Origin: Isoetes taiwanensis
Lineage: Eukaryota > Streptophyta > Lycopodiopsida > Isoetales > Isoetaceae
Reading direction: 5' to 3'
Assembly: GCA_021234155.1 (NCBI GenBank)
Contig: JAJEKV010000005.1
Coordinates: 21,002,089-21,066,088, forward strand
Length of the DNA: 64,000 nucleotides
The number at the start of each line of letters is the position of its first letter. Position 1 is the first letter of the stretch. The position numbers were made by a program, and so were the translations under genes. This document shows, in pieces, positions 3,960-61,249 of this stretch. A model generated the notes under the pieces. That model saw only the letters and a list, made by a program, of their open reading frames with translations, did not search any database and was not told the origin of the DNA.

Positions 3960-4616
3960 CTATTGAGTCTCTGTCACAGAATCTGGAGTAATGCCAAGTT
4001 CCTTGGCCATTCTATCTGCATGTTCCTTTCCTAACGCAAGGGTCTGTGAGAGATTCATTTCGGAATATCCTGTAATTGAAGGGATCTCTACGTCCATTGC
4101 ATTGACGATATCCTGCACACGTCCTGAGCACTGTGTATCCATCAATTCCTCCTGTGGATCAATAGAGAATCCAGAGGTGTCCCGTAATTTCCTTCTCTTG
4201 ATTCCTTCGATGTTTTTTGGGTCTTCAGACTGAGAGTCGGCTTCAGACGTACCCACGTATTCAAACTGGGTAGATTGTTTGTTGAGCATACCACTTATTA
4301 ATGGCATTGCCATTTCAAATTTCTGGTTCAGTATCTCGAGCTTTTCGAATGTTTGATCAAGTGCAGCCGAGTCCTTTTCCGTCTTCTCTAGCAAAGCCCG
4401 AGTTTCCTGTAGGCTTTGTTCAAAGCCTTTCTGATCTAACTGATCCAGAATCTCGTCCATTTTACTCAGATCGGTCTCCTGGGTTATTTTGAGGTCCGGC
4501 ACATTTGCATCATTAGGGACTTCTTTCTGAATTTCTTCTTCTTCTTCACACTTAGGCCTTGCCATTTTCTCTAATGTCTCGAAGAAGGATCTCAAAAATA
4601 CACACCTTGTCGTCAT
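3960..4616 (-). CDS. Acidic coiled-coil C-terminal exon, unknown protein
   Basis: The open frame gives about 218 residues. A plausible coding part begins at MARPK with an acidic run (EEEEE). A helical heptad-rich section follows (roughly residues 45-105: DQLDQKGFEQSL..., LEKTEKDSAALDQTFEKLEIL), then a basic KRRKLR motif and a Ser/Asp-rich end. I recognise no family. It follows, on the same strand, the fragments at 4552-6893 and may be the last exon of the same gene. It overlaps the preceding fragment in another frame, so either an intron or a frameshift lies near 4560-4620. The function is unknown. Confidence 0.4.
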   Translation of the reverse strand: MTTRCVFLRSFFETLEKMARPKCEEEEEIQKEVPNDANVPDLKITQETDLSKMDEILDQLDQKGFEQSLQETRALLEKTEKDSAALDQTFEKLEILNQKFEMAMPLISGMLNKQSTQFEYVGTSEADSQSEDPKNIEGIKRRKLRDTSGFSIDPQEELMDTQCSGRVQDIVNAMDVEIPSITGYSEMNLSQTLALGKEHADRMAKELGITPDSVTETQ

Positions 4617-4827
4617 ACTCCAAGGAAACGCTACGTTTCCCTTGCATCAGAGCCACTCTAGAAGCTGTCCCCGCACCGTCATCGGGAACCAACTCCTTGA
4701 CCATGGCGTAAATATATGACATTTTAGCCTGGCCTTTAAGAACGAAATCCCCTTCCGTAGCTGCCCATGAGAACTTGGGCTTACCTGTGAAGTATTCCTG
4801 ATACTTTTTCTTCGTTTTCGCGTCCAC
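4552..4827 (-). CDS. Hypothetical exon upstream of the acidic C-terminus
   Basis: The open frame encodes about 91 residues rich in Lys, Asp and Glu (KTKKKYQEYF, FSWAATEGDFV, ELVPDDG). No domain was recognised. Its position between the 4888-5103 segment and the acidic segment suggests it belongs to the same minus-strand transcription unit. The exon ends are not certain. Confidence 0.3.
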   Translation of the reverse strand: MDAKTKKKYQEYFTGKPKFSWAATEGDFVLKGQAKMSYIYAMVKELVPDDGAGTASRVALMQGKRSVSLEYDDKVCIFEILLRDIRENGKA

Positions 4828-4887
4828 CTCCTCATTACCTGTGATCGGATACTTTGGAAGAGGTGTGCCTCTAGGTGCATTGGTCCC

Positions 4888-5103
4888 CTAAGTTAGACAT
4901 AGCTCCAACCTGGGCTGCACATGCAAGATACACACCTCACTTCTATTGATCGTTACATGGGTGACGTAGTATTGAAATTCCTTAACCATTTTCTTGCTAA
5001 CCCACCCCTGTTCTTCATAAGCACCCGTGGAGACATGTGAACTCCCCTGGATCTGATTTTGGCTGTATAAGCAGTTTGGCAAGTGGACAGATCTCAAGAA
5101 CAT
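4888..5103 (-). pseudogene. Possible degenerate methyltransferase-like segment
   Basis: The frame reads VKEFQYYVTHVTINRSEVCI. This resembles in outline the region of DNA adenine methyltransferases just before the SAM-binding loop, where the family has an LLxxLIxxxSxxGDxVLD-type pattern. The DxF/GxG residues expected there are not present. The call is weak and rests on that pattern plus the ParB-like sequence upstream. Phage proteins often fuse these two domains. Confidence 0.2.
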
Positions 5104-5160
5104 GACGATGTGATACTCAGGTCTCGGCCAAGTAACTATTTTCCTGCGAAAGAAAGTAAT

Positions 5161-5672
5161 TTAGTATTCTAATACATAACACTTTGTAGTTGTCATGCTT
5201 GCAATCCTGCTAAAAAGATCCGTGTATTTTTTCACTTCCCAGACAGTGTTGAAACTGCGCATATCAATAAAAACCATTGTAGCATTTTCTGATACTTGCC
5301 TCCCCCCCACAAGAATACCAGATTTTGTTATTGCTTGCACAATGTTTCTCTTTTCTTTCTGTTTCCTTGCTTCATCTAGTTTGAGTATCTCTGTACACAG
5401 TGTCTGCAATTATGTCGTTGCATTGAATAGATAATTGGATACTCCCTGTTGGACAAGTTTCCATTGAGCACCCGCGTTCTTCTCTTGGCGTAAACTTTAG
5501 CAAACTCCAGGCGTTGCTCAACGCTGCCCATAACAGAGCAAAGGATCTGAGCAGCAAATATGTTGTGGTTTCCAGAAATAATATAGAATTTTTTGTTGTC
5601 ACTAACCAAGCTTTCGCTTCCATTCCAGACCTGTCTTTCCCTGAGAACTGACCCAACTTCTGGGTTTTTCAT
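5161..5672 (-). CDS. ParB/sulfiredoxin-like domain, second half
   Basis: Two overlapping frames cover this segment. The upstream one (5376-5672) contains KFYIISGNHNIFAAQILC. The core GNHN-x-FAA matches the GxHRxxAA box that ends the ParB N-terminal domain. The downstream one (5161-5409) has SGILVGGRQVSENATMVFID. A frame change near 5390 means an intron or frameshift. With the 5808-6893 fragment, which carries the preceding part of a ParB-like domain, it suggests one interrupted protein. No plant pathway is known to me for it. Confidence 0.4.
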
Positions 5673-28927: not shown

Positions 28928-30562
28928 TGTGACGTTCCAAGTATTTATACAGTATATGTAACATATTTATACGGTATACATATAAATATACTGACACGTC
29001 ACCAGTAAAGGTTACGCCACCCTGGGGTATTTTGACTTAGGGGGTTGACCTAAAAGGGTTTAATTTAGCTATGCTAAATTAAATTAGTAAAGGATAATTA
29101 TCCAATTAATTGTATTGGACTAATTGGCTATTTAGGAGAGTGCCACCTGGCCTAACTCGATTGGCCAGCATGGGGAATTCCAATTTGGGTCATCAACTTG
29201 ACCCCTACCCCTAATTGACACCATAATCGACCAAGAGGAGCAGCAGCTGAGCGCCCACCCTTGCTGAGCGCCCAAATTACCTGTGTACCCAGTACTGAGC
29301 GCCAAGTCCAGAGAGGATGGAGCTACCAAATGACAATGGATCTAGCAGGAACTCAGGTGGGTGGTTCGTGTAGCTTGATGTTCTAGAGTAGCGCCCCTGT
29401 TGGGCACTTGTTGTGTTCATTTCTTCTGTTCTCTCTGTGCTTTAATTGTAGGAACTAACCCTTGATTGCAAAGGTGAGTTCTCTTTATCTCCGACTCGAT
29501 ACTTGCTCATGAATGATGGATTGATAGTTCTTTGCATAAGTATTGCTATTGAAACGGAGGAATTAAGGGGGGGTAGAGACCTCTGAGCCATGTGTAGTAG
29601 TATGCTCCTAGGTAGATCCCTGTATTTCCCATTAGATGCGGCCTGTGTACAGGAGACCACCGGGTCCTAGATGCTATGGAATGGCTTAGCACCAGAGAAG
29701 GGACGCAGTGGTGAAGTGGGGGTGGGGTCTTGCATGAACATAAAAGGCTCCTGAGACTCCTACAGTGGGCTAGGCCTGATAGTCGGTCACGTAGAGGGCC
29801 GGGTATGGGTCTGACACTTCCTGGGTGTAGAGGTGTGACCCGTACGGGGCACCATGCACTTTGAGTAGATTTAGGGTGAGTAAGTCGGGTACGGATGGGG
29901 GGGTCGCTGATGCGGCACGCATGGAACCACTGCGATCCTGTAGCTCACCCATGGAACCACTGCGATCCTGGAAGGGGACACTTCCCTGACCTGCCTCGTC
30001 GGACCGGGGCTTCATGAACCCTGGAGTAGGCTCGAAGGGTGATACCTTGAGTCTGCATCTTCGGAAGGCTATAGTGACGCCATAGCATGAATCGACCCAT
30101 CTGCAAGTGTGCACAGGAGGGGCGGATGGAGTGGACAACCCTAGTCGATGTTCTATGCCAGCCAACGCCAGGTTATATCTCTGTCTGTTGATCTCTTGAG
30201 ACCGAGCCGTCAGTTCATCCTCACAGGAGTCTGAACCGGGGTAGAACCTGGGGTTTGGGGTGTTTTCCTTAGGATTAGATGCATATTCTTTGCCGCTAGT
30301 ACTTGGATGGATGTGCCACTCTTCGTGGTGGTTATTTATATATATTTATGCTGTGTGCTAACATGTATTCACGCTTCCGCGACTTAAGAGCCCCATTGAA
30401 GGCGTGGGCCGAATGACACCTCCGTGTCCTTCACTCGGGCATCTCTTTACGGATGGCCTGGGATAGACGGAGGGCCCTACTCATGGCGAGATGGTTGCCA
30501 TGGGAGGGGAAAGTCCCCGTATGTATACGACCGGGTGTCGTATATATTCAGGGAGCGTCACA
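28928..30562 (+). repeat. 5' LTR (1635 bp)
   Basis: It begins TGTGACGTTCC and ends AGCGTCACA. The termini form a 7-bp inverted repeat TGTGACG/CGTCACA with the canonical TG...CA ends. The first 492 bp recur at 43166-43656. The end is fixed by the primer site, which starts two bases later. A 20-bp motif ATGGAACCACTGCGATCCTG occurs twice near 29919-29970. Confidence 0.9.
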
Positions 30563-30563
30563 G

Positions 30564-30575
30564 TGGTATCAGAGC
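30564..30575 (+). other. Primer-binding site (initiator tRNA-Met type)
   Basis: TGGTATCAGAGC directly follows the 5' LTR. This is the usual primer site of plant Gypsy elements, complementary to the 3' end of initiator tRNA-Met. Confidence 0.9.
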
Positions 30576-30745
30576 ATGGTTTTGGGAAGCCAAACTACTG
30601 CACTGGCCACATACTAACTCGATAGATCGTTAGTTAGTGAGTGACGTTTTTTTTGGAGTAGTATGAGATTTGGGTGGTGTAGTGGATGCCGTCATGATTA
30701 ATTTAACGTGGTTAAAGTATAAAATTGGTATGTGTACCCGGCGCA

Positions 30746-30940
30746 AAACCCTAACCCTAAACGGCGGGCAGGGGGTACCCGGATGTTGCTGGCGACGGTG
30801 GCAGGGTCGAAATAAGGTCTGCCCGTCGCCCTAAAAAAAAAAAAAAAAAAAAAAACCTAACCCTAAACGGCGGGCATGGGGTACCCGGATGCTCCTGGTG
30901 GCCGTAGCGGGGTCGGGGTAGGGCATGCCCGCCGCCCTAA
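30746..30940 (+). repeat. Two-copy leader repeat with telomere-like motif
   Basis: A roughly 107-bp unit beginning CCTAACCCTAAACGGCGGGCA and containing GGGGTACCCGGATG occurs twice, separated by an A-run (30832-30855). CCCTAACCCTAAA resembles the plant telomere repeat, but only two units occur per copy. Confidence 0.75.
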
Positions 30941-31171
30941 AAACGCGATTCCGCCACTTTTTCTTAAAAAAAATTTAGGGTAAAAATTTCAAATTTTAGT
31001 TAAAGGTAACATTTTTCCCTTCATTTTTCCTAACGCTCATTGCTTTTTGGTGCTCCGCCTAGCCGCCATAGCCGCCGGACCGAAGCTTCCCTCCGCCATA
31101 GCCATTTCTATCTGTAACCTCATTCCTTGCCTTCCTCTCGCAAGCGCCCGCTCAGCGCCCACCTTTTTGTG

Positions 31172-31586
31172 ATGGAGGAACCCAAGCAAGTATACAAGCG
31201 CATACCTCGCTATTCTAGATCTCCCATAGAGTCTCTGATGGCCGAACTGTTGCCACGCCCAAACCCATCACCAGAACAGGAGGCTAAAACTGAGGAGTTA
31301 TTGGAGCATTTTGTTAAACGCTTTTATGAAGGGGTTAGGATACCATACCCGCTCTTTTGTTATAACGAGCGCTTCCTATAACGCCATCCGGGAAACCTAC
31401 ACCGTAATTGAAGAGGAAGATGGTGTCCAGAAATATACACGGTTCTATCCACCGGAAGGGAATGAGCAAGCAGAAGCCGAGGCCATACAGATGCAGGCCC
31501 ATAAGATCCTTCAAATGGCACAAGCAACGGACCTACAATGGCTCGCAGCTGATGACCCTGTTGCGCAGGCTTTAGCATACCGTTAA
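31172..31586 (+). pseudogene. N-terminal part of the H3-like retroelement ORF
   Basis: A frame starting MEEPKQVYKR at 31172 runs to about 31370. A frame change there leads into the frame of the H3-like ORF (YNAIRETYTVIEEEDG...). A TAA at 31584-31586 then separates it from the open frame beginning at 31632. The peptide is acidic and helical, with no recognised domain. Both lesions look like secondary damage to one longer protein. Confidence 0.55.
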
Positions 31587-31631: not shown

Positions 31632-32429
31632 ATGCAGGCCAATCCCCCACGGTATTTCCTGGAGCTTAAACGCAGAACAGACGCCCAGATAGCCAGGGAA
31701 AAACGAGCAGAGGAGCATGCAACACTCCTGGCCAAATCACAGAGGGCAACTCACGTAGTAGAGGAGGCTGCTAAACTCCGTGAGGATACCCTCCATGCAC
31801 AGCAAGTGGAACAGGAGCAAGCCCTGAAAAGAATGCAAGATAACGCAGATCGTATAGCCAGGGAAGCAATAGAAGTAGTTAAGGAGCGGCTTAGGAAACA
31901 AGATCAGGAACGGGACCGTCAAGATCCCCCACCTCCGAATGACCCTTTTCATCGCCGAAAGCGAAAGAGTACGGCCCGTAAGTCGGGTGCTCAGTACAGG
32001 GACCAGCTCAAGGCTCGGGGTGGTGTCACCAAGGCTGCCGGGGACAACCAGCGGGACGAAATCATCCGGAAGGCCCGGCATCCAAAGGCAGCGGGAAAAA
32101 CTATTCCCGGAGCCCCACCCCAGCCTAAGAGGAAGCATCGTTACAAGCCTGGCACCGTGGCACTTAGGGAAATAAGGAAGTATCAGAAGTCTACCGAATT
32201 CTTGCTACGGAAACTTCCCTTTCAGCGTTTGGTCCGAGAGATTGCTCAAGAGTATAAGACGGATTTCCGGTTTCAGACTCATGCAATTTTAGCACTCCAG
32301 GAAGCGGCCGAAGCCTATTTGGTGGCCCTCTTTGGCGATGCCAATTTATGTGCTATCCATGCTAAGCGAGTGACGATAATGACAAAGGACCTTCAGCTAG
32401 CACGCCGGATCCGTGGGGAACGTCCGTGA
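31632..32429 (+). CDS. Retroelement protein with C-terminal histone H3 (H3.3-like) domain
   Basis: The frame encodes 265 residues. Residues 1-105 are a charged, helical, coiled-coil-like segment ([12 protein letters not shown]..., [16 protein letters not shown]). Residues 106-165 form a basic tail containing TARKS at 114-118, the same string that surrounds Lys9 in histone H3. Residues 166-265 are a full H3 core with no gap: [54 protein letters not shown], and an end at [11 protein letters not shown]. Tyr at the H3 position-41 equivalent, and HAILAL giving His87 and Leu90 equivalents, match the plant H3.3 signature rather than H3.1. Loop 1 has no CENH3-type insertion. The sequence sits between the primer site and gag, in sense orientation. 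Whether the protein enters nucleosomes is unknown. Confidence 0.85.
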
Positions 32430-32706
32430 CTATGTAAAATAACTTTTTTGTGTATATATAACCCGATATATTAATATGAATCCTGTTTTGACTTCTTATT
32501 CAGAGCGTGATTTTCTTTCCTTTATATATGTATATTAGGAAAAAAAAAAAAAAGATAAAGAAAGGAAAAAAATATATGTAATAATAATAATTAGCTGGCG
32601 CCTCGAACGCCGTGCCCTGAAATTTAAAAGTGACATTCACTTTAGGGTTTTCGTTCATTTCTTATTCCTTCCGTTTTCTTCCTCCTCCTATTTTTTGTCT
32701 TCAGCA

Positions 32707-34116
32707 ATGGACTACGCTGGGCGTTTAGCATGGTACATGGGAGGTGAGCAGTGGGATCCCCAGGTCCCATACCCTCTTTTGGACCCCATGTTGCAGTGTA
32801 AAGTCGACCTTATCGACAATATGCGTGCACATCCTCATTATAACCTTTTTCTGGAGTTTTATGATGAGGAAATCCTACCCCAGGCAGAGTTTCTCAGAGA
32901 GCTGCCACAACCCTATCTCCACAGGGATATCTTATGGCAGATGTTTGGGGATGACCGTCACGGCAATGATATTCTTAGGGGCATTGTCAGACGTGCTAAG
33001 CACGCCCCCATTATTGACCTCGGCTCTAACGAGCTGTACTTTGAGGCCCAGTTCGCCCTTGCTCTTATCATGGATAGGTATGTTGACGGTACCGACACGG
33101 CCTTAGAGCAAGTCAAGTCCCCACTTCCCCCAGATCCTGAGGAGGATGAACAGATAAGCTATGCCGACTTTGCAAGATGGAAGAAATTGGCCACAGAGAA
33201 GCCTTTACCTCGTAGTAAGGGCCAAGCACTTGTCGGCTTAAGCTCGCTTCCTACTATAAAGGTTGGGGATCAAGATTACTTGCTGCTGAGCGATATTCAA
33301 TGGGCATATCAGCATATCGCTAATAAGGGCAAGCAAAAGACGGCTCATCTCCTTTATGAGCTGGCCGAGTATTGTCAGGGTCAAAATGACTTCATCGACT
33401 ATTCTCAACCCGTCTATGTGCCAGAGATACACCAACTGCTCAACTATCATCCTCTTGATGTTGAGCCTATCAACACTCTGTTATCGTTACGGCAGTTAAT
33501 GATTCAGGGTATCCCGTCCTCAATTCCTGAATCGGCTTTCCACGCTACGGCCCCACATGTTCCCAATATCAACGATGTCGTAGTCAAGATGGAAGACGAC
33601 CCAACTATGGAGGATTTATGTGATGAAGGCCAGTACGCTCAGGAGGAGAAAGATTTTGCTAAGGAAGAGGAACTGCCCCAGAACTTAGAATCTGAATTGG
33701 CTTCTTCAACCCATCCGACTGTTGAGGGGTTGAAATGCCATATTACCCGGTTCTTCTTGTCGGCTTTTACAAGCAGGCAAGTCCTCTTCTTTGCCAAAGC
33801 AATTGCACCTGAAGCAGAGGCGGCTGTATGGGCACTCAGGGCACTTTCGACGACAACCGGCCATAAGAAGTTGGCCCCTAACTTGGAGCAGGTCATCCTG
33901 GTAAACCGTGATCTGGCCATTGCGGTGTTTGACCACGATATCGGCTCTTGGATGAACTTAAGTCTACTGGTTGCAGCGCCATTAGCTACCAATGTTCCTC
34001 CAAAGATAGCTTCATCAGCTGCCTCATCAATTAACCCTAGTGTATTACTTCTGCAGCACCGACCAGAGCCTGAGTTTGATACACAAGCGCAAGATGTTGA
34101 AGGGTCGACCTCTTAG
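32707..34116 (+). CDS. Retroelement ORF of unknown function, possible H2A-like C-terminus
   Basis: The open frame gives about 469 residues from the ATG at 32707, just after an acceptor-like TTTTTTGTCTTCAG. Residues about 1-290 (MDYAGRLAWYMGG..., DRYVDGTDTALEQV, LPTIKVGDQDYLLLSD) match nothing I know. An acidic linker follows (DEGQYAQEEKDFAKEEEL). Residues about 345-440 resemble a histone H2A fold in outline: HITRFFLSAF, a long helix rich in Ala (EAEAAVWALRAL), NRDLAIAVFDHDIG where H2A has a RHLxLAxRNDEEL-type segment, then INPSVLLLQ near the docking tail. The H2A resemblance is weak and could be chance. The long intact frame implies recent coding constraint. Confidence 0.6.
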   Translation: MDYAGRLAWYMGGEQWDPQVPYPLLDPMLQCKVDLIDNMRAHPHYNLFLEFYDEEILPQAEFLRELPQPYLHRDILWQMFGDDRHGNDILRGIVRRAKHAPIIDLGSNELYFEAQFALALIMDRYVDGTDTALEQVKSPLPPDPEEDEQISYADFARWKKLATEKPLPRSKGQALVGLSSLPTIKVGDQDYLLLSDIQWAYQHIANKGKQKTAHLLYELAEYCQGQNDFIDYSQPVYVPEIHQLLNYHPLDVEPINTLLSLRQLMIQGIPSSIPESAFHATAPHVPNINDVVVKMEDDPTMEDLCDEGQYAQEEKDFAKEEELPQNLESELASSTHPTVEGLKCHITRFFLSAFTSRQVLFFAKAIAPEAEAAVWALRALSTTTGHKKLAPNLEQVILVNRDLAIAVFDHDIGSWMNLSLLVAAPLATNVPPKIASSAASSINPSVLLLQHRPEPEFDTQAQDVEGSTS

Positions 34117-34334
34117 TTCTAGATTCTATTAGACAATTGTATTCAGTTTTATGTAATTTTGATTGGCATTTCCTTTAATGGGCCATCACATAATGCATGT
34201 ACCATCTTCTTATATTTACTTGTACTATTGACAACCATTGAATTGTCTTTTCCCTTCACTGCTTATCTCTCTTCCTTAGAGTTGGAATATAAGAAATTGT
34301 TCAATGTTATATATTCATTCCTACCGTCTTGCAG

Positions 34335-34786
34335 ACGAGGAACTTGCAGAATATGAGGAAAGAATCACCAACGATATACGAAGGGACGATTCAGGACCTC
34401 CAGACCAGGATTATGGCCAACGGTACGGGGAGTACCCGGAGCGTGATGATGATGATTACAAGGTAGGGGAACCTGCAGCAGAAGGAGAGCCCTATGATCC
34501 AGCTAAAGGATTGGAAGTAGTCAATATTCTCCGAGAACGGGCCTTTGAGGACTTACAGCAAACTCTTCGTCGAACATGGGATTACTGGGACATGACAAGG
34601 CATGAAGCTTTTGCTGACGCCAACGATCACTTCTGGCAGATTTTCTATGCGCTAAGAAGGCTTTTTAATCTCCTTATCATTAGCCCCACGCTAGACTACC
34701 AACCTGTCATCATCCAGGCCTGGGCTCGCTACAAGGTACGAGAGAGCGTTCGCTACTCTATCTTGTACCCTTTTGCGTCGCCCTAG
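34335..34786 (+). CDS. Retroelement ORF 3, acidic and helical, unknown
   Basis: The coding segment begins after an acceptor-like CCGTCTTGCAG. It reads DEELAEYEERITNDI, then an acidic Asp/Glu/Pro-rich part, then a helical part (ILRERAFEDLQQTLRRTWDY, TRHEAFADANDHFWQIFYAL, RRLF). The TRH...YALRR spacing is loosely like the TEH...YALKR part of histone H4, two residues longer, and I do not rely on it. A strong donor (AAG|GTACGAG) occurs at about 34734 and could splice to the acceptor at 35055 upstream of the next ORF. Confidence 0.5.
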
Positions 34787-35055
34787 GCCCGGTCCCCGCA
34801 GCTTTCTATGTTTATGTGTGAGTTGAAGAATTGTCCAATGTATAATATCGATCTCTGTATTATATCACTTTAAGTTTTGTAACTACCAATGTAATGATCT
34901 CCAATGTAATGACTGTACTCGCTTATAATAAAGATCTTTTTTCTTGTACTTTTTTTTTTAAAACTACTCTCTCTTAATCCTATCCGTAATAATCTTGTTT
35001 GTGGGACTTGATGTCACTGTAATTCTGCTTATATTTTTTTTTATGGTCAATGTAG

Positions 35056-35246
35056 ACGGTGCACGTAACGTCGCCTGGCAGACACCCTCGAATGCCAGTA
35101 GGCTAACACCTGAGCAAGAACTTATGTTGATGAAGAGGCAATTAGTCGAGTTACAGACTTATGTGTTAAACGCCAATCCCCCACAGCATGTGCAGGAAGA
35201 TGGACTGGAGTTACCTCCGTTACCGCCAAGTCCATATGTAGCATAA
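35056..35246 (+). CDS. Short exon-like frame following ORF 3
   Basis: After an acceptor-like TCAATGTAG the frame reads DGARNVAWQTPSNASRLTPE, then a leucine-rich helix (MLMKRQLVELQTYVL) and a Pro-rich end (LPPLPPSPYVA). It can be joined in frame to the donor at about 34734 in ORF 3. No family was recognised. Confidence 0.4.
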
Positions 35247-35327: not shown

Positions 35328-35660
35328 CTAATGCGTACATCTAGAGTGCACCATTTCTGAGCCATTGATTTTAGCCTTTTTTTCCAATGGTCAATAACCA
35401 ATGGCTCACAACAAAAGCCCTTTTTTTGTGCGTGTGGTGCATAATGGTCAACAACCAATGGCTCACAACAAAAGCCCTAATGCACATCTAGAGTGCACCA
35501 TTTAGAGCCATTGATTTTAGCCTTTTTTTTTTTCCAATGGTCAACAACCAATGGCTCATAACAAAAGCCCTTTTTTTGTGCGTGTGGTGCATAATGGTCA
35601 ACAACCAATGGCTCACAACAAAAGCCCTCTTTTTGTGTGTGTGGTGCATAATGGGCACAT
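35328..35660. repeat. Higher-order tandem repeat, about 150 bp
   Basis: The block starting TACATCTAGAGTGCACCATTT at about 35336 recurs at about 35484. Both carry two sub-repeats of CAATGGTCAA(C/T)AACCAATGG, then CTCACAACAAAAGCCC. It is non-coding. Confidence 0.8.
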
Positions 35661-35901
35661 GAAGGGCTTGAAGGGGCGCATGTAGTGCGGTTTCCGCCGA
35701 CAACAACATTTCTTATCATAACTTTTGATCCGAGCTCTGTTTGAGATGATTTTTATTATGTTGGAAAGCTCTCTCTGAGATCTTTTGATAGTGTATGATA
35801 TGGTTATGTTTGGTTAAGTTATCTATGCTAAAACAGCAATTTTTCGTCCGGGTTTTGTAGGCTTTCACATCCTACCAGCTGATTAATACAGGATTGCGCT
35901 A

Positions 35902-37699: not shown

Positions 37700-38657
37700 A
37701 TGCTACAGTGTGTATGCGCCGCACTTTCATGCACTTGTCCTTATGTCACGCAGACTGCCCAGCTGGCCATGGCGGACCTCGATTGGGATGATCTCGAGTC
37801 TACACCACCTGTCGAGGAGGAGGCTCTCGAATACATTCACGGTGAGTCCCATATCCTTGCAGCCATTGAAACCGGCAATGCTGAAAGTCAGCCTGCCGTT
37901 ATTTCCACCATAGGTCAAGTAGACAGCAAACCTTTCATAATTCTGATGGATACAGGTAGTACACATAATTTTGCTTCTCCTAGAATGGCCCAGGTATTGC
38001 GGCTCGAAACCTTGAGATCCCGACCGAAGCCTGTCACTTTAGCCAGTGGTAAGATCAGACATATGCATGGCCGTCGCATTAACCTTAAAATGCAGCTGCC
38101 AGGTGCACCAGTTGCATTGGGTGCCGAATTAATGGATATAGGCAAATATGATCTCATTGTTGGTATGGAATTCTTGGCATCTGCAAAGGCCAATATAGAC
38201 TGCGAGAAACGAGAGGTTACCTTCAACGCAGCTAATGGAGCCCGCGTGACTATAAAAGGTGACTCTTTAAACCCCATTATGCAGTCTATGACCATCAGGC
38301 AGTTAAATAAGGCTATACGTAAGGATAAGTTGCTTTGCATTATCAGACTTGCATCCATTGAGTCAGATGCTAAACAGAAGCAAGTAATTGATACCTTGCC
38401 AGAGGGCATTGCTAAACTTCTCCGAGAATTTAGCGATCTTTTTCCAGATGAGATCCAGAAACTTCCTCCTTTTAGAGGAGTAGAATGTGAAATAGCCTTA
38501 GAACCAGGTACTAAGCCGACCAGTAAGGCTCTGTACCGTATGAGTCCCCCTGAATTGGCAGAGCTTAAAAAGCAACTTCAGCTAGGTTTCATTCGTCCTA
38601 GCGTTTCGCCTTTTGGCGCTCCTATCCTTTTTGTTAAGAAGAAGGATGGCTCCTTGA
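37700..38657 (+). pseudogene. Gypsy protease and start of reverse transcriptase
   Basis: The aspartic protease active site LMDTGSTHNF lies at about 37943-37972 (DTG at 37949). The linker reads DLIVGMEFLASAKANIDCEK. The RT begins with PFRGVECEIALEPGTKP..., then LGFIRPSVSPFGAPILFVKK and DGSLRMCI. The frame then runs into transposon sequence at 38668, ending artificially at 38701. It continues at 41410 as [12 protein letters not shown]. The frame is intact apart from the insertion. Confidence 0.9.
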
Positions 38658-38667
38658 GGATGTGTAT
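38658..38667. repeat. Target-site duplication of the nested TIR transposon, left
   Basis: GGATGTGTAT is repeated exactly at 41400-41409. It falls in the RT codons for [10 protein letters not shown], so removal of the insert plus one copy restores the RT frame. Confidence 0.9.
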
Positions 38668-38703
38668 CGGTGCTACTATTGGCACCCTAACTATACATTA
38701 AAA

Positions 38704-39140
38704 ACCAAATGTATATCGAGTTGGATATACTGCGTATATCGAACTCGATATACAAATATATAGCGTATATCGAGTTCGATATCGCGATATATATCTAGAT
38801 ATTAGATATCGAACCTCGATATCGAACTTCGATATTTTTTTTTTTAATTTTCGATTCTGGCCGGCCGGAAAATTCCGTATATAAGCGTCATTTTTATATA
38901 ATTATACGGCGTATATAGCGTATATCAAACTCGATATATGCCATATACGTATATCGCACTCGATATACGCTATATACGTATATCGCACTCGATATACGCT
39001 ATATACGTATAAAAATTTATATACGAGTTTTTATTTTGCAGCCCATGGCTTTTGCCACATTACAAATGACGTATATCGAGTTAGATATACGTCCTTTTTT
39101 TGGCGCGATATACAACATGTATATCGAACTCGATATACGT
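38704..39140. repeat. Left subterminal palindrome array
   Basis: About nine copies of a 20-bp imperfect palindrome (consensus GTATATCGAACTCGATATAC and variants with GAGTT or GCACT in the centre) lie at irregular spacing. They are probable transposase-binding sites by analogy with other TIR elements. This is inference. Confidence 0.75.
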
Positions 39141-39474
39141 CACTTCTATAAAATATCAATAGCTCGTGTGTGAGACGCATCGACTCGTCCACGCTTTGGT
39201 GATCTTCCTTCTGGTCTTTTGCTCATGGTGTCTGATTTTTCATCTGTAATCTTTTATTTTATTTCTTTTTAACGCGTACTTTTGTTACAGATAGTGTTCC
39301 TCCTGTTCCTGTAGCTATCGAAGACGACGGTATCAATTGTATTCATTTTGTATTAAACGTATGCCACTATTTTGATTTTGTGCCATAAGTACGTATGAAT
39401 AGAATAATATTCTTGTAACTATATTAGGACAAGAATTATTTATTATATATTTGATATTGTATTAGGGATTGTAG

Positions 39475-39657
39475 ATGGAGACCAACTATGATTCGGAGGC
39501 TAGTGGTAGTGATGATGATTTTTCAAATATCTCTGATGAGTTCTCTAGTGACATAGAGGGTTTTTCTGAAGAAGGGAAGCTCTTAACCGATGAAGAGCTT
39601 GACATTGGGGACGATGTATCTAGGTTCTCAACCTTACGGGGGATTCTGTGGATGTGA
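39475..39657 (+). CDS. Acidic first exon in the nested transposon
   Basis: About 60 residues, dominated by Asp, Glu and Ser (METNYDSEASGSDDDFSN...). It abuts the 39648 frame in a different phase, so an intron or frameshift lies near 39640. Acidic leaders are common in plant transposase genes. Confidence 0.4.
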   Translation: METNYDSEASGSDDDFSNISDEFSSDIEGFSEEGKLLTDEELDIGDDVSRFSTLRGILWM

Positions 39658-40406
39658 GTGGAATAGGAAGCCAACATCCTCCTAGAAGCCATCGAGAGTT
39701 ATTGATAGAGTGTGCAACAAGATATCCTGACCCTATTGCATGGTTAGATAGTAGAATAGTTAAGGGATATGGATTTACGTCTGAAACATATCAGCTTATG
39801 AGACATTGCATAATGCATCATAGTAATCCCGTGTCTTCTGACATTGATAGATGTGATCCAAACTTTCCTTCCACTCCTCAAAGGAAAAATAGGCCCCCAA
39901 CCCCAATTGCTGATCGAAAGATCGAGCGTTGGAATGCATATATGTCTAAACTTCATACAGACCCTGCAGTAGGGTCCTATTTGTATAGGCTCGACCATGG
40001 ACCACAACATAGGATTCCATGGATAGAGATGTGGGACACTATTGTGGCCCATCATGACTTGGAAGAATCTACACATGTCTCATTTTATAAAACCATGGAA
40101 ACACTAGAGGCAGAGTGGGAGGTAGGACTTCTATTTCATGGCATTCCAAGACAATACATTCGTGATTGCCTCACAGCATGCCAATGCGGAGCTAGAATGA
40201 GACTAGCTGATGAGCACTTTGATCACAAGGTTGAAATAAGTATTGATCAATTAGAAGAGCAGGTCATCCAGTTGCAAACACAGTATAGAGTGCGGTTAGT
40301 CCATACGCACTCTAGGGTACGAACACAAACTCAGGAGACTGTCTCTGCCCAAGGATCCCTGATCATGATATGCGTAGTGATGTTTTTATGCGGCTCACTG
40401 CATTGA
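39648..40406 (+). CDS. Unknown transposon protein, 252 residues
   Basis: The open frame begins MDVSGIGSQHPPRSHREL. It contains DPIAWLDSRIVKGYGF, YLYRLDHGPQHRIPWIEMWD, GIPRQYIRDCLTACQCGARM and a helical end (SIDQLEEQVIQLQTQ). No known domain was recognised. It lies upstream of the transposase C-terminal remnant in the same element and may be its N-terminal half or a second ORF. The end near 40406 may instead be an exon boundary, since the next frame (DVFMRLTALMTEPNQL) continues the sense. Confidence 0.45.
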   Translation: MDVSGIGSQHPPRSHRELLIECATRYPDPIAWLDSRIVKGYGFTSETYQLMRHCIMHHSNPVSSDIDRCDPNFPSTPQRKNRPPTPIADRKIERWNAYMSKLHTDPAVGSYLYRLDHGPQHRIPWIEMWDTIVAHHDLEESTHVSFYKTMETLEAEWEVGLLFHGIPRQYIRDCLTACQCGARMRLADEHFDHKVEISIDQLEEQVIQLQTQYRVRLVHTHSRVRTQTQETVSAQGSLIMICVVMFLCGSLH

Positions 40407-40565
40407 TGACGGAGCCAAACCAGCTAATGTATGATACTAAACTACATGCATTCCTGCGAGTGTATGGAAGGAATCCTGCTATTATGAAGTGAGTCATGTT
40501 GCATCTACTTATACTTGTTTCCTTAAGGTAACAAGGCATAGTACTAACTAGTGCACGCTCATATC

Positions 40566-40800
40566 ATAGCTATCTAAACCACAATTGGTTAGGTTCTGGA
40601 ACATGGAATGGCTACTGGCAGCGTCATAGGAGGATGTTCCCTCGCGGTAATTGTGATACCACGAACTATGTGGAGGCTCATTGGAAGACACTCAAGCATC
40701 AAACCCTTGAGTGTCGAGTGAACCTACGCATGTATACTTTGGTATCCCATCTCATTGGATTTCCGGATGGTTCAATGCCTACTGGAGGCACAATCTTGGA
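40566..40800 (+). pseudogene. Mutator-like transposase C-terminal remnant
   Basis: The frame reads GTWNGYWQRHRRMFPRGNCD, then TTNYVEAHWKTLKHQTL. The TTNxVExxWxxLK pattern is the conserved C-terminal signature of MULE transposases, which contains the last acidic catalytic residue. No DDE core is visible upstream, so the element is a deletion derivative. Confidence 0.55.
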
Positions 40801-41204
40801 CCGCTGCAACGAAACATCTACATTTAATATTCACATAATGAAATCAAAATACAAATGTAGTGAGTATATCACACTCAATATACGTTTTCCAAAAACAAAA
40901 CCAATCTCCTTGAATTTTAGATCCTAATTCTAGTTCCCACCTCTCTTAAACGATCACATCAATTGAATTTTAGATCCTAAACGATCACATCAAAAGCATG
41001 AAAATAAACGGTTGAAGAGCTCATACAAGAACGAGATGTAAAAGTAAAGAAATCTTTGAGGAATTTGATGTGAATACTCTTACTAACCTGGTGCTTCTTC
41101 CATGATCTGATCAGGTATGACTGCTCCCGAAATTCTCTCCAAAACACGCGCCGGAAATCGCTCCGAAGAATCCGGAAAAAACACAAAAAAATCTGATATA
41201 CAGT

Positions 41205-41360
41205 AGTATATCGAGTTAGATATACTATAGTATATCGAGTTCGATATACTATAGTATATCTAACTCGATATACTACTATATATCAATTTTATACGCTTTT
41301 TTTTATACGCCATTTTCCGGCGCGCTGCCGGATATACGTATATCGAACTCGATATATGCA
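41205..41360. repeat. Right subterminal palindrome array
   Basis: Four further copies of the GTATATCGA(G/A)(T/C)T(A/C)GATATAC palindrome. The three at 41208-41275 are spaced 24 bp apart, a very regular arrangement. Confidence 0.75.
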
Positions 41361-41399
41361 TGGTTTTGAATGTTTGGTTAGGGAGCCAATATTTTACCC

Positions 41400-41409
41400 G
41401 GATGTGTAT
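41400..41409. repeat. Target-site duplication of the nested TIR transposon, right
   Basis: Exact copy of 38658-38667, directly followed by the continuing RT codons TGATTATCGGCAG. Confidence 0.9.
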
Positions 41410-42030
41410 TGATTATCGGCAGCTCAATAAGCATACCATCAAAAATCGCTATGCTTTGCCTAGAGCAGACGATCTTATGGACCAGTTGCAAGGGGCCAAG
41501 TACTTTTCAAAGATTGACTTACGCTCCGGATATCATCAAATAAGAATTAAAGAGGAGGAAATCCATAAATCTGCCTTCCGCACTAGATATGGGCACTATG
41601 AGTTTACTGTTATGCCTTTTGGATTAACTAATGCCCCCGCAACTTTTATGCGGTTAATGAATGATGTCTTCCGCCAATACTTAGATGATTTTGTTGTTAT
41701 TTTCTTTGATGATATTCTCATCTACAGTAACACACTGGAGGAGCATGAGAACCATCTTCGCTTGGCCCTACAAAAGTTAAGACGTCACCAGCTCTTTGCC
41801 AAGTTCTCTAAGTGCAAATTTGCCACTCCAAAGGTGGACTATTTAGGCCATGTTATTTCCGCAGAAGGAATTGCTATGGATCCAGCAAAAATAGAAGCAG
41901 TCAAGGATTGGCCCATTCCTGGTAATGTGTCAGAGGTCCGAAGTTTCTTGGGATTGGCAGGATATTACCGGAAATTTGTTAAGGATTTTGCAAAAATTGC
42001 AGCACCTCTTACCGACCTTATCCGGACACA
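41410..42030 (+). pseudogene. Gypsy reverse transcriptase, continuation
   Basis: The frame encodes [60 protein letters not shown] (catalytic Asp-Asp at 41708-41713) and [19 protein letters not shown]. This is the complete RT palm and thumb. It is truncated after TDLIRT, where an internal deletion joins it to integrase sequence. The RNase H domain and integrase core (zinc finger and DDE) are absent. Confidence 0.9.
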
Positions 42031-42659
42031 TGGCATAATCCCATTTCTAAGGTCGAGGTTTGGTTGAAGAAGTTCGCGGTTATTTGTTGGCTGCACGCAG
42101 TCGTCAGAAAAGTGTCGCGGATAAGCATAGAACCCCACGAGTCTTTTTGGTGGGCGAATCGGTTTGGCTCAAGATCAAGGTCAAACAAGCCAAGCTTAAG
42201 ATTGGTAACTGCAAGAAGCTGGCACCCAGATGGGCTGGGCCGTTCAAGATCACTGAACGTGTTGGAGAACAGGCATATTGTTTGGATTTGCCACCCCACT
42301 TGAAGATCCACAAGGTCTTTCACGTGAGTCTTCTGAAGCAACACACCCCTGATCCAGAGGAGGTCTTGGACACCCCAACCCTCCTAGAAATGACAGAAGA
42401 GTAACTCGAGATAGTGCCTGAAGCTCTTCTTGATCGAGCTTATAAACAAACCAGAAGAACTCAAATGTTGCAATACTTGGTTAAGTGGAAACACTTACCA
42501 GTAGAGGATGCTACCTGGGTGATGAAGATAGACCTTGAGAAACACTATCCGGACTTCATGCGGGACTCTCAAGGTCGTACCATCAACGATGCTATCAACC
42601 CCACAGCCGGCGGTAAGCTTGGAAGCTTGATTGCCAAGAGTAACGCTCTAGAGGGGTAG
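42031..42659 (+). pseudogene. Integrase C-terminal domain plus chromodomain
   Basis: From 42060 the frame reads GYLLAARSRQKSVADKHR, then VWLKIKVKQAKLKIG, KLAPRWAGPFKITERVG and FHVSLLKQH, the usual end of a plant Gypsy integrase. After a single TAA at 42402-42404 the same frame gives a chromodomain (LQYLVKWKHLPVEDATWV, then LEKHYPDF). This places the element among chromoviruses. Chromodomains in this group can bind methylated histone tails. The stop and the missing integrase core are disabling. Confidence 0.9.
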
Positions 42660-43165: not shown

Positions 43166-43656
43166 TGTGACGTTCCAAGTATTTATACGGTATACGTAAC
43201 GTATTTATATGGTATACATATAAATATACTGACACGTCACCAGTAAAGGTACGCCACCCTGGGGTATTTTGACTTTGGGGGTTGACCTAAAAGGGTTTAA
43301 TTTAGCTATGCTAAATTAAATTAGTAAAGGATAATTATCCAATTAATTGTATTGGACTAATTGGCTATTTAGGAGAGCGCCACCTGGCCTAACTCGATTG
43401 GCCAGCATGGGGAATTCCAATTTGGGTCATCAACTTGACCCCTACCCCTAATTGACACCATAATCGACCAAGAGGAGCAGCAGCTGAGCGCCCACCCTTG
43501 CTGAGCGCCCAAATTACCTGTGTACCCAGTACTGAGCGCCAAGTCCAGAGAGGATGGAGCTACCAAATGACAATGGATCTAGCAGGAACTCAGGTGGGTG
43601 GTTCGTGTAGCTTGATGTTCTAGAGTAGCGCCCCTGTTGGGCACTTGTTGTGTTCA
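43166..43656 (+). repeat. Truncated 3' LTR (491 bp)
   Basis: The sequence matches 28928-29419 with about six substitutions and a one-base indel. It breaks off after GTTGTGTTCA, although the 5' LTR continues for another 1.1 kb. The break is a truncation or rearrangement, not the natural LTR end. Confidence 0.9.
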
Positions 43657-60239: not shown

Positions 60240-60700
60240 TTTGCAGGATTGCCAAACTAGGAGTAGTGGGGTACCATCTTATGAGTGTAGAATGTCACCC
60301 AGACACCAAATCTAGATTGGCCTGCATATTAGATATGGAGTCTACCTCTTGCAACAAGTTCTAGTGGAGAAGATTGAAAGGAATCTGTAGATCCCAATGG
60401 TCGCCATCAATGTAACCATTGGAGGCACTTGAAATTCCATCGTTCTAGTTAAGATGTAGGAAGAGTCGAAGGTGCTTAAAGAGCTTAACAGAGAACAAAC
60501 TATACTAGAAAGCCCTAACTTTTATAAAGGAATAAAAAGCTAGGTTATGCTAATGTCAGTTGCATTTATTTTTATTATTTTTTCAGTGTACCATTGTATT
60601 TATTTAATTAAATACATACATAAAAATAGTAAGGGATTTCCATTTATATAAAAAGGTACAGCTCAAAGTACATCGAAGTATGTTACATTATACATATACA
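60240..60700. other. Spacer between the CACTA end and the H3-like pseudogene
   Basis: AT-rich sequence with no recognised gene. Confidence 0.4.
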
Positions 60701-61249
60701 TCAATGTTTTTGTCCTCTAATTCTCCAAGCCAGATGCATGTCTTTGAACACGATGGTAACCTCCTTAGCATGGATAACACAAAAATTTGTATCATCAAAC
60801 AAGGCCATCAGGTAGTCTTCAACAGCTTCTTGAAGCACGAGCACAGCATGAACTTTAAACCTGAGGTCTGGCTTGTACTCCTAAACGATCTCACGAACTA
60901 GTCGCTGAAAGGCAACTTCCGTATCATAAGTTCAGTTGACTTCTGATACTTAACGGATTTTTCACAACGCCACAGTCCCTGGCCTCCACCTATGGGGTTT
61001 CTTTGGGATGGACGGGGCATTTTCAAGAGCTGGTCTGGGGCAGGAGGGGAGTCTAGCCTCACGGATTCGCTGTCGTCTCATAGCCAACGAACTAGATTTG
61101 GCCTGGAGTCCTATCTTAAAATCTTTCTTTGCCCGTCGCAATGTGGACTTGAGCCTTTTTTGGTCTTTAAACCATTTGCCCTGTTTGCTTCCGTTCTGCT
61201 GCTCTTTGGGTGTACCTTTCCTCACTGCGATTTTGCAGACCAGTAGCAA
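60701..61249 (-). pseudogene. Second histone H3-like retroelement ORF, broken
   Basis: The minus strand encodes a basic tail (KRLKSTLRRAKKDFK, then ENAPSIPKKPHRWRPGTVAL) followed by H3 core pieces: [55 protein letters not shown] and [16 protein letters not shown]-to-TGA change directly after GTVAL, an extra T two codons later and a TAG in the next helix disable it. The long tail before PKKPHR matches the layout of the intact ORF at 31632-32429 rather than ordinary H3. His and Leu at the 87 and 90 equivalents again fit H3.3. It lies in antisense just before an LTR of the same family. Confidence 0.75.

Follow-up and report, generated by a model that had tools for sequence, protein, structure and literature searches.

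The window analysed here, 64,000 nucleotides of the Isoetes taiwanensis genome (contig C1056, positions 21002089-21066088), holds a broken copy of an LTR retrotransposon. The first open reading frame (ORF) after its primer binding site ends in a histone H3 core. The features of this copy, together with those of a second H3 stretch, are collected in Table 1.

Table 1. Positions of the retrotransposon features and H3 stretches in the window
Feature	Position	Strand	Evidence or remark
5’ LTR, 1,635 nt, ends TGTGACG...CGTCACA	28928..30562	+	repeat pair with 43166-43656
Primer binding site TGGTATCAGAGC	30564-30575	+	
N-terminal domain of the H3-fusion protein, broken	31172..31586	+	three-frame reading against other copies
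265-aa ORF: charged helix, basic linker, H3 core	31632..32429	+	ORF list, Pfam, structure search, AlphaFold2
H3 core, gap-free, H3 residues 38-135	32133..32426	+	alignment to host H3.3
ORF2, 473 aa, conserved-start ATG at 32707	32695..34116	+	commonly adjacent to the H3 ORF; without Pfam match
ORF3, 160 aa	34304..34786	+	no Pfam match at E<=0.01; start in 10 other loci
gag start; remainder interrupted in the window copy by tandem repeats 35328-35685	34995..35246	+	
Protease and start of reverse transcriptase	37700..38701	+	RVP_2 E 2.2e-13
Reverse transcriptase	41360..42067	+	RVT_1 E 6.7e-36
Integrase C-terminal SH3-like domain	42051..42401	+	SH3_Tf2-1 E 3.4e-22, Integrase_p58_C E 7.3e-07
Chromodomain, cut off from the preceding piece by a stop codon	42405..42656	+	Chromo PF00385 E 5.5e-09
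Polypurine tract AAGGGGGGGAGAA	43153..43165	+	
3’ LTR, truncated to 491 nt	43166..43656	+	self-comparison of the window
Second, old broken H3 stretch of the same kind	~60701..61100	-	blastn and three-frame reading by eye

The window element and its H3-fusion ORF

The LTR pair, primer binding site and polypurine tract of a Ty3/gypsy LTR retrotransposon are all present. In a self-comparison of the window the two LTRs (28928-29419 and 43166-43656) are 98.6 % identical over 492 nt, and six substitutions at 491 aligned sites correspond to a K2P distance of 0.0123. Since the 3’ copy is incomplete, the 3’ end of the 5’ LTR was placed by the CA beside the primer site. The latter is taken to pair with the 3’ terminus of initiator tRNA-Met; chromoviruses have a primer binding site of the tRNA-Met type. 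LTRs also flank a second copy (L043/L059), but are only 88.98 % identical over 880 nt, so that the window insertion is the younger of the two. The leader (30745-30943) contains two 93-nt repeats holding telomere-like units, CCTAACCCTAAA, followed by a GC-rich stretch.

The order gag, protease, reverse transcriptase (RT), RNase H and integrase is found across pieces of the copies L053, L059 and L060. A frame of L053 homologous to the window gag (4614-5315) matches Retrotrans_gag at E 9.8e-05, just under the cut-off, and gag of L059 (3-383) does so at E 6.8e-11. In the window, the region from about 38668 to 41399 has nothing matching it in L059 and looks like sequence inserted into the RT; a palindromic TATACTATAGTATATC array (41176-41303) lies close to its edge. 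The stretch of L059 that encodes RNase H and most of the integrase has no counterpart in the window copy. The integrase is represented only by its SH3/p58 C-terminus and, in L059, by an H2C2 piece (E 4.7e-06), the rve integrase core giving no Pfam match at its expected place (L059:3148-3402). The window chromodomain scores 36.2 bits against a cut-off of 25.1, while the one following the integrase in L059 is weak (Chromo E 0.0098, below the cut-off). To judge by its domain content, which includes the chromodomain, the window copy is a chromovirus-type Ty3/gypsy element, and the RT insertion and lost RNase H and integrase sequences, beside its LTRs and the ORFs and domains of the element, mark it as a broken one. 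Chromoviruses, as described in the accessible text of PMC6317226, have the same LTRs, the same gag-PR-RT-RNase H-integrase order and a chromodomain after the SH3-like domain of the integrase. In contrast, three ORFs precede gag here, and the first of them encodes the H3 fusion.

For the 265-residue ORF, the original prediction had proposed a gap-free H3 core and a set of motifs behind a charged helical segment, and all of these are there. The core forms the last 98 residues of the ORF (168-265) and is of H3 type without gaps through αN and α1-α3. Pfam Histone matches the ORF at E 5.5e-42, and its best relative in a search of solved structures is the H3.3 of 7ux9 (E 4.2e-52), among 176 distinct chains matched at E<=0.001, 60 of which were shown; the core aligns without gaps to solved H3s in all three alignments shown. 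On these sequence matches, the histone identity of the C-terminus is supported far beyond chance. A single-sequence AlphaFold2 model (overall mean pLDDT 72.3, pTM 0.29) places the charged helix at residues 7-97, with a mean pLDDT of 86-95 for the blocks within 11-90, and predicts further helices at 174-192, 195-207, 212-234 and 237-260. The location of the ORF between primer site and gag was also correct, but ORF2 and ORF3 intervene before gag. The ORF itself is real but holds only the C-terminal ~60 % of the protein, which an ORF of about 450 residues encodes in other copies. The upstream half of the window's fusion, starting with the ATG at 31172, is disrupted by a frameshift and a stop or deletion: the N-terminal domain survives as two pieces in two frames (31172-31381 and 31311-31586), and a part is missing before 31632.

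Copies, subfamilies and linkage to the element

In the I. taiwanensis genome (1,658,258,908 bases, 1,110 contigs), protein-versus-genome searches place the H3-fusion ORF at no fewer than 236 distinct sites on 110 contigs, the union of at least 144 found with the window-type query and at least 92 found with a second type. These were scored from 9,504 and 11,964 loose first-look candidates, respectively, and because only part of the candidates was scored the true copy number is probably above 236. The union comprises all 148 matches listed for the first query and 93 of the 116 listed for the second, the 23 omitted being extra pieces of copies already counted. At 226 of the 236 places the match extends well into the H3 core; at the other ten (6 + 4, judged by query ranges) it stops before the core or early in it. 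Many copies within the LTR family, the support that the original prediction had called for, are therefore present.

Where the frame is open, a copy specifies a single protein, about 400-460 residues long in the nine measured (L012 among them, which lacks the first Met) and built of an N-terminal domain of about 190 residues, a linker and then H3. On this common plan there are three subfamilies, A (which includes the window copy), B (L051-L058, L062-L065) and C (L072-L076, of which L076 comprises only the H3 end). The linker is a long charged helix in A and is shorter and Gln-rich in B. Between subfamilies (A-B, A-C and B-C; 27 pairs, three copies each), the N-terminal domains are 23-40 % identical versus 80-90 % for the H3 cores. 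A fourth lineage is represented by L077 (C1014:354000-354900, on a contig of 371,639 bases), which has a shorter linker without the long helix, reads LLGVL at H3 positions 86-90 and retains the host-like Glu105-Asp106. The old H3 stretch on the minus strand of the window is 72.5 % identical to 32178-32370 over 193 nt by blastn, and an ORF2-like remnant lies about 0.3 kb past it (60325-61100, minus strand). It has HAVL at positions 87-90 and Thr107, as in host H3.3, and by its sequence may belong to an early lineage.

The association of the H3 ORF with the element was measured from several sides. Of 50 loci, 31 (the window copy included) have the exact 12-mer TGGTATCAGAGC 1.65-1.87 kb ahead of the H3 core, and two more have it with one mismatch, one of them at 2.05 kb; at this level it is found in 33/50 loci versus 0/50 shuffles, 17 loci having none. 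When the genome is searched with ORF2 alone, 68 of 90 places (from 90 of 95 matches, the others being further pieces) have a listed H3-fusion ORF match 0.2-2.2 kb upstream on the same strand, and in 46 of these 68 the spacing is 237-333 nt. A search with the N-terminal domain alone, of which the first 90 of 150 matches were used, runs into a listed H3-fusion match in at least 74 places; these are matches of the whole 265-aa ORF rather than of the H3 core alone, and the figure is a lower bound because most H3-fusion matches below about E 1e-71 were left out of the comparison. In a great many copies, the H3-fusion ORF belongs to the standard make-up of the element.

Derivatives without the H3 ORF also exist, since tblastn found none in five of six 1.4-kb stretches fetched upstream of ORF2 places that have no listed H3 match; the sixth (L070) holds a broken H3 ORF. 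In L066 (C1060:423500-424900) a deletion from the leader to ORF2 has removed the H3 ORF, and this copy is possibly a non-autonomous derivative. Only the last ~40 nt of the H3 ORF are left in L069, the upstream stretch of L068 is interrupted by an LTR in opposite orientation, and L067 and L071 lose similarity. Some of the 22 ORF2 places and 16 N-terminal-domain places that remain unlinked may be H3-less derivatives of this sort.

The protein collection contains one relative of ORF2, P0122 (38 % identity, 472 aa, on a 3.4-kb ENA contig). Identity of P0122 reaches 73 % and 63 % with two copies on C1014 and lies at 43-46 % for the other 88 ORF2 places listed; the two higher values suggest that this kind of element may also exist in another organism. 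No relative of ORF2 was found in viral contigs (query P0122) or prokaryote contigs (query window ORF2), and a single-sequence structure prediction of ORF2 was uninformative (mean pLDDT 33.8). For the N-terminal domain of the fusion, a word-based search yielded no relative at E<=0.001 among 1,244 candidates from 5.8 billion proteins, a kind of protein set in which transposon proteins are frequently lacking. With the 265-aa ORF as query, the protein collection yielded mainly host-type H3s (8,000 scored, 120 listed), and the ten read among the 120 listed all carry the canonical H3 tail.

The region before ORF2 has a pyrimidine-rich look in 38 aligned rows, but an AG lies within 8 nt in only 22 of them, and a conserved splice acceptor at this point was rejected. 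Before the ORF3 start, [C/T]TTGCAG is present in 11/11 rows, a count partly forced by the way the motif was found, and TAG precedes the gag start as an acceptor-like site in 9/9 rows. These sites (34304-35060; L039-L057) suggest that gag may be made from a spliced RNA.

Constraint on the fusion protein and origin of its H3

The examined copies bear the marks of purifying selection at the sequence level, strongest on the H3 core, the further support that the original prediction had asked for. Within subfamily A (22 copies, NG86, 193 of 231 pairs usable) the core has dN 0.026 and dS 0.869, hence a ratio of 0.030; the N-terminal domain reaches 0.127, the helix 0.203 and the tail 0.178. Within B (11 copies) the ratios, in the same order, are 0.058, 0.166, 0.176 and 0.112. 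In these figures dN is biased low, most of all in the core, because queries containing H3 were used to find the copies and many of them were chosen for open frames. For copies from the first search the N-terminal domain lay outside the query, yet the choice of open frames still affects its value of 0.127. Pairs with dS <=0.02, saturated pairs and pairs of fewer than 40 codons were excluded, and an internal stop led to the removal of L062 from the alignment. Over the 99 codons of the A core, 26, 14 and 89 sites vary at codon positions 1, 2 and 3, respectively. Synonymous distances between A and B are saturated (2 of 242 core pairs usable). The contrast in identity between N-terminal domains and cores of different subfamilies is less exposed to the bias of copy selection. 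That the core is the most constrained part argues for its use as a histone and not merely as a basic peptide.

Residues with roles in contacts with DNA, with H4 or between H3 and H3’ are mostly kept. R49, R52, K56, R72, R83, F84, C110, K115, R116, D123, R128, R129 and R131 are invariant in all scorable copies (25 A + 11 B), and R63, R69 and H113 are retained in 35/36, 34/36 and 35/36. The exceptions are K64R and R134F, both in 11/11 B copies, and T118, which is changed in 3/25 A copies and kept in 22/25. Changes fixed or nearly so in both A and B concern positions 60, 86, 89, 102, 105, 107 and 124; V89I and T107A are present in 36/36 copies and in the C copies read, I124L in 33/36. Some of these core changes (L60, G102, E105 and T107, together with K64R and R134F in B and T118 in some A copies) might affect contacts with chaperones or histones. 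The stretch recognised by chaperones (positions 87-90) is SAVL in host H3.1 and HAVL in host H3.3; A copies have HAIL there, and FAIL is found both in B and in those C copies that were read. Overall, 33 element cores are 72.7-86.9 % identical to host H3.3 when gaps are counted as differences, the ungapped ones 79.8-86.9 %. CENH3s have a divergent core with an insertion in loop 1; the 47 aligned element rows contain no core insertion relative to host H3, and identity with CENH3 was rejected.

In place of the canonical ARTKQTARKS... tail, which is absent, the element H3 carries an extension of about 300-360 residues (nine copies measured). The TARKS motif noted in the original prediction is present in the window but is not conserved across copies: among the A copies it occurs in L012, L018 and L028, others having TPRKS, TPQRS, TPHRS, TPSKS or TPNKS, and it is missing from B copies, while two of four C copies have ARKS. 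A K27-like stretch, G-K-[TS]-[IL]-P, is found in 21/21 element rows; it reads A-K-T-V-P in C copies and is without the proline in L062, L064 and L065.

Tyr41, His87 and Leu90 had been taken to indicate an H3.3 origin. Of the three only His87 is informative, as Tyr41 and Leu90 are also found in host H3.1. In A copies, H87 and L90 are each present in 25/25 and Y41 in 20/25; B copies have F87 and L90 in 11/11 each and Y41 in 4/11, and the C copies read also have Phe87. Residue 31, the fourth of the plant H3.3 residues (T31), falls at a position not alignable in the element copies. The mean nucleotide identity of A cores is 73.7 % with host H3.3 and 70.6 % with host H3.1; for B cores it is 68.1 % and 67.9 %. 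A tree of H3 cores (26 rows, 99 residues) leaves the choice between H3.1 and H3.3 unsettled, with 5 of 23 inner branches well supported; its midpoint root sets B apart from A and the hosts, against the shared derived residues. H3.3 rather than H3.1 is thus the favoured donor, through His87 in A and the nucleotide identities, but is not proven.

Read by eye, the coding part of the host H3.3 gene (L061) falls into four exons separated by three introns. The element H3 is intronless, as expected from capture through RNA or from an intronless donor, and capture was probably via a processed RNA. Glu77 is common to host H3.1, host H3.3 and 32/36 element copies, six other H3s in the tree having Asp77, which fits a capture in this plant lineage. 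The derived residues V89I and T107A, shared by all subfamilies read, support a single capture. As part of an explanation that seems fairly likely when taken as a whole, one H3 would have been captured before the present subfamilies split and fused to the C-terminus of the first, orphan ORF.

Proposed role of the fusion and its relation to known systems

As originally suggested, the captured H3 may let the element change the chromatin that surrounds its DNA or particles. The explanation that accounts best for the observations, and that we regard as moderately probable, is that the captured H3 fusion enters chromatin and serves as a tether and/or makes chromatin resistant to silencing. As the product of the first ORF after the primer site, the fusion would be synthesised early and pair with host H4, and host chaperones would load the pair into nucleosomes, an incorporation that we regard as reasonably likely. 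The N-terminal extension, standing in place of the normal tail, could then hold the pre-integration complex or proteins of the element at chromatin; alternatively or in addition, nucleosomes containing the fusion would not accept the usual silencing mark on H3K9. As the purpose of the fusion, tethering and anti-silencing have about the same probability. A more far-reaching proposal, which is tentative and rather doubtful, is that the lineage builds nucleosomes of its own: a dedicated H3 variant, joined to a domain peculiar to the element, would be placed in chromatin of the host or of the element and label it silencing-proof and/or a landing site.

Several other explanations have to be weighed. 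The insertion of a single host H3 pseudogene, named beforehand as the finding that would speak against the original prediction, is excluded by the number of places and contigs. No supporting point was found for it or for a host gene family spread by duplication, and both are further contradicted by the spacing to ORF2 and by the primer site and LTR end upstream of the H3 ORF, so that this pair of readings has a negligible probability. Plant transposons often pick up pieces of host genes, and some copies of this element have lost the H3 ORF; the H3 could thus be a transduced fragment without a role for the element. This too is very improbable and already contradicted, by a core dN/dS of 0.03-0.06 (biased low) and by cores that have stayed similar across subfamilies whose N-terminal domains have diverged.

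It is unlikely, but less so, that the fusion acts as a decoy that poisons host H3K9/H3K27 methylation in trans, whether free or chromatin-bound, and tethers nothing. The rewritten tail, the K9 context that varies between copies and the prevalence of the K27-like stretch would suit such a role, but it is the H3 core and not the tail that is most constrained. Slightly less probable again is a function in packaging, whereby the fusion would condense DNA or RNA with gag in the cytoplasm or the virus-like particle, outside nucleosomes. The ORF lies upstream of gag, and its basic linker and long helix could assemble; however, the residues that we presume to contact H4 and H3 are kept, beyond mere basic charge. 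A role in packaging viral DNA is ascribed to the histones of giant viruses (PMC9145170, in its accessible part), but the chaperone site, which as HAIL or FAIL stays near host HAVL in the element, is unconserved in the virion histones of Marseilleviridae according to the same text (PMC9145170).

Here a very abundant retrotransposon has a core histone among its genes, of long standing and apparently under selection. Whether a transposon can write chromatin and not only read it becomes testable, and for the origin of histone variants that bear long fused extensions an RNA-derived route comes into consideration. The copies also form a large natural set of H3 variants within one genome, in which the nucleosome core is kept and the tail rewritten. 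On the more far-reaching proposal above, element proteins would act on a platform written by the element itself, whose integrase also bears a chromodomain of the histone-reading type.

In the literature on histones in transposable elements, covered by titles and the starts of abstracts with few subscription papers, no retroelement-encoded core histone was found, and a prior description is possible. The word "histone" is absent from the accessible text of a review of additional ORFs in plant elements (PMC7264820) and from the main text, as available, of the genome papers of I. taiwanensis (PMC8566536) and I. sinensis (PMC10541799), and "retrotransposon" from that of a review of viral histones (PMC9145170), in which core histones are reported from DNA viruses. 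Among the closest comparisons is KnitGypsy-Dnmt3 of Klebsormidium, a Gypsy element with a captured DNA methyltransferase under a Ka/Ks below 0.2 (PMC5890265, available part). Both are Gypsy elements of the green lineage with an intronless captured chromatin gene that is under purifying selection and has a multi-exon host counterpart, but the gene captured there encodes an enzyme and lies inside pol, whereas here it encodes a core histone (PMC5890265). Gypsy elements of Phalaenopsis that encode an m6A demethylase (2-ODD) similarly keep an extra ORF with a host-type domain over rounds of replication, the difference being an RNA demethylase and an orchid host in place of a histone (PMC9289625, in the portion accessible).

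Viruses offer parallels at the level of the protein. In bracoviruses, a captured H4 with an elongated tail has been shown experimentally to be incorporated into host nucleosomes (accessible text of PMC9145170). The element protein resembles it in core and extension, although its incorporation is a prediction, and differs in being an H3 of a retroelement rather than a virulence gene of a wasp virus. Single viral H3s (xenomavirus, Dishui Lake phycodnavirus, sylvanvirus and others) have cores 73-87 % identical to those of a possible host and, in half of the cases, an extended tail, and are thought to enter host nucleosomes (PMC9145170, same portion). These belong to DNA viruses; the H3 described here is instead encoded by an LTR retrotransposon, has an added domain of about 190 residues and exists in many genomic copies. 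At the chaperone site, the named single viral H3s have SAIL or TAIL (PMC9145170, as accessible), a shift similar to the HAIL and FAIL of the element.
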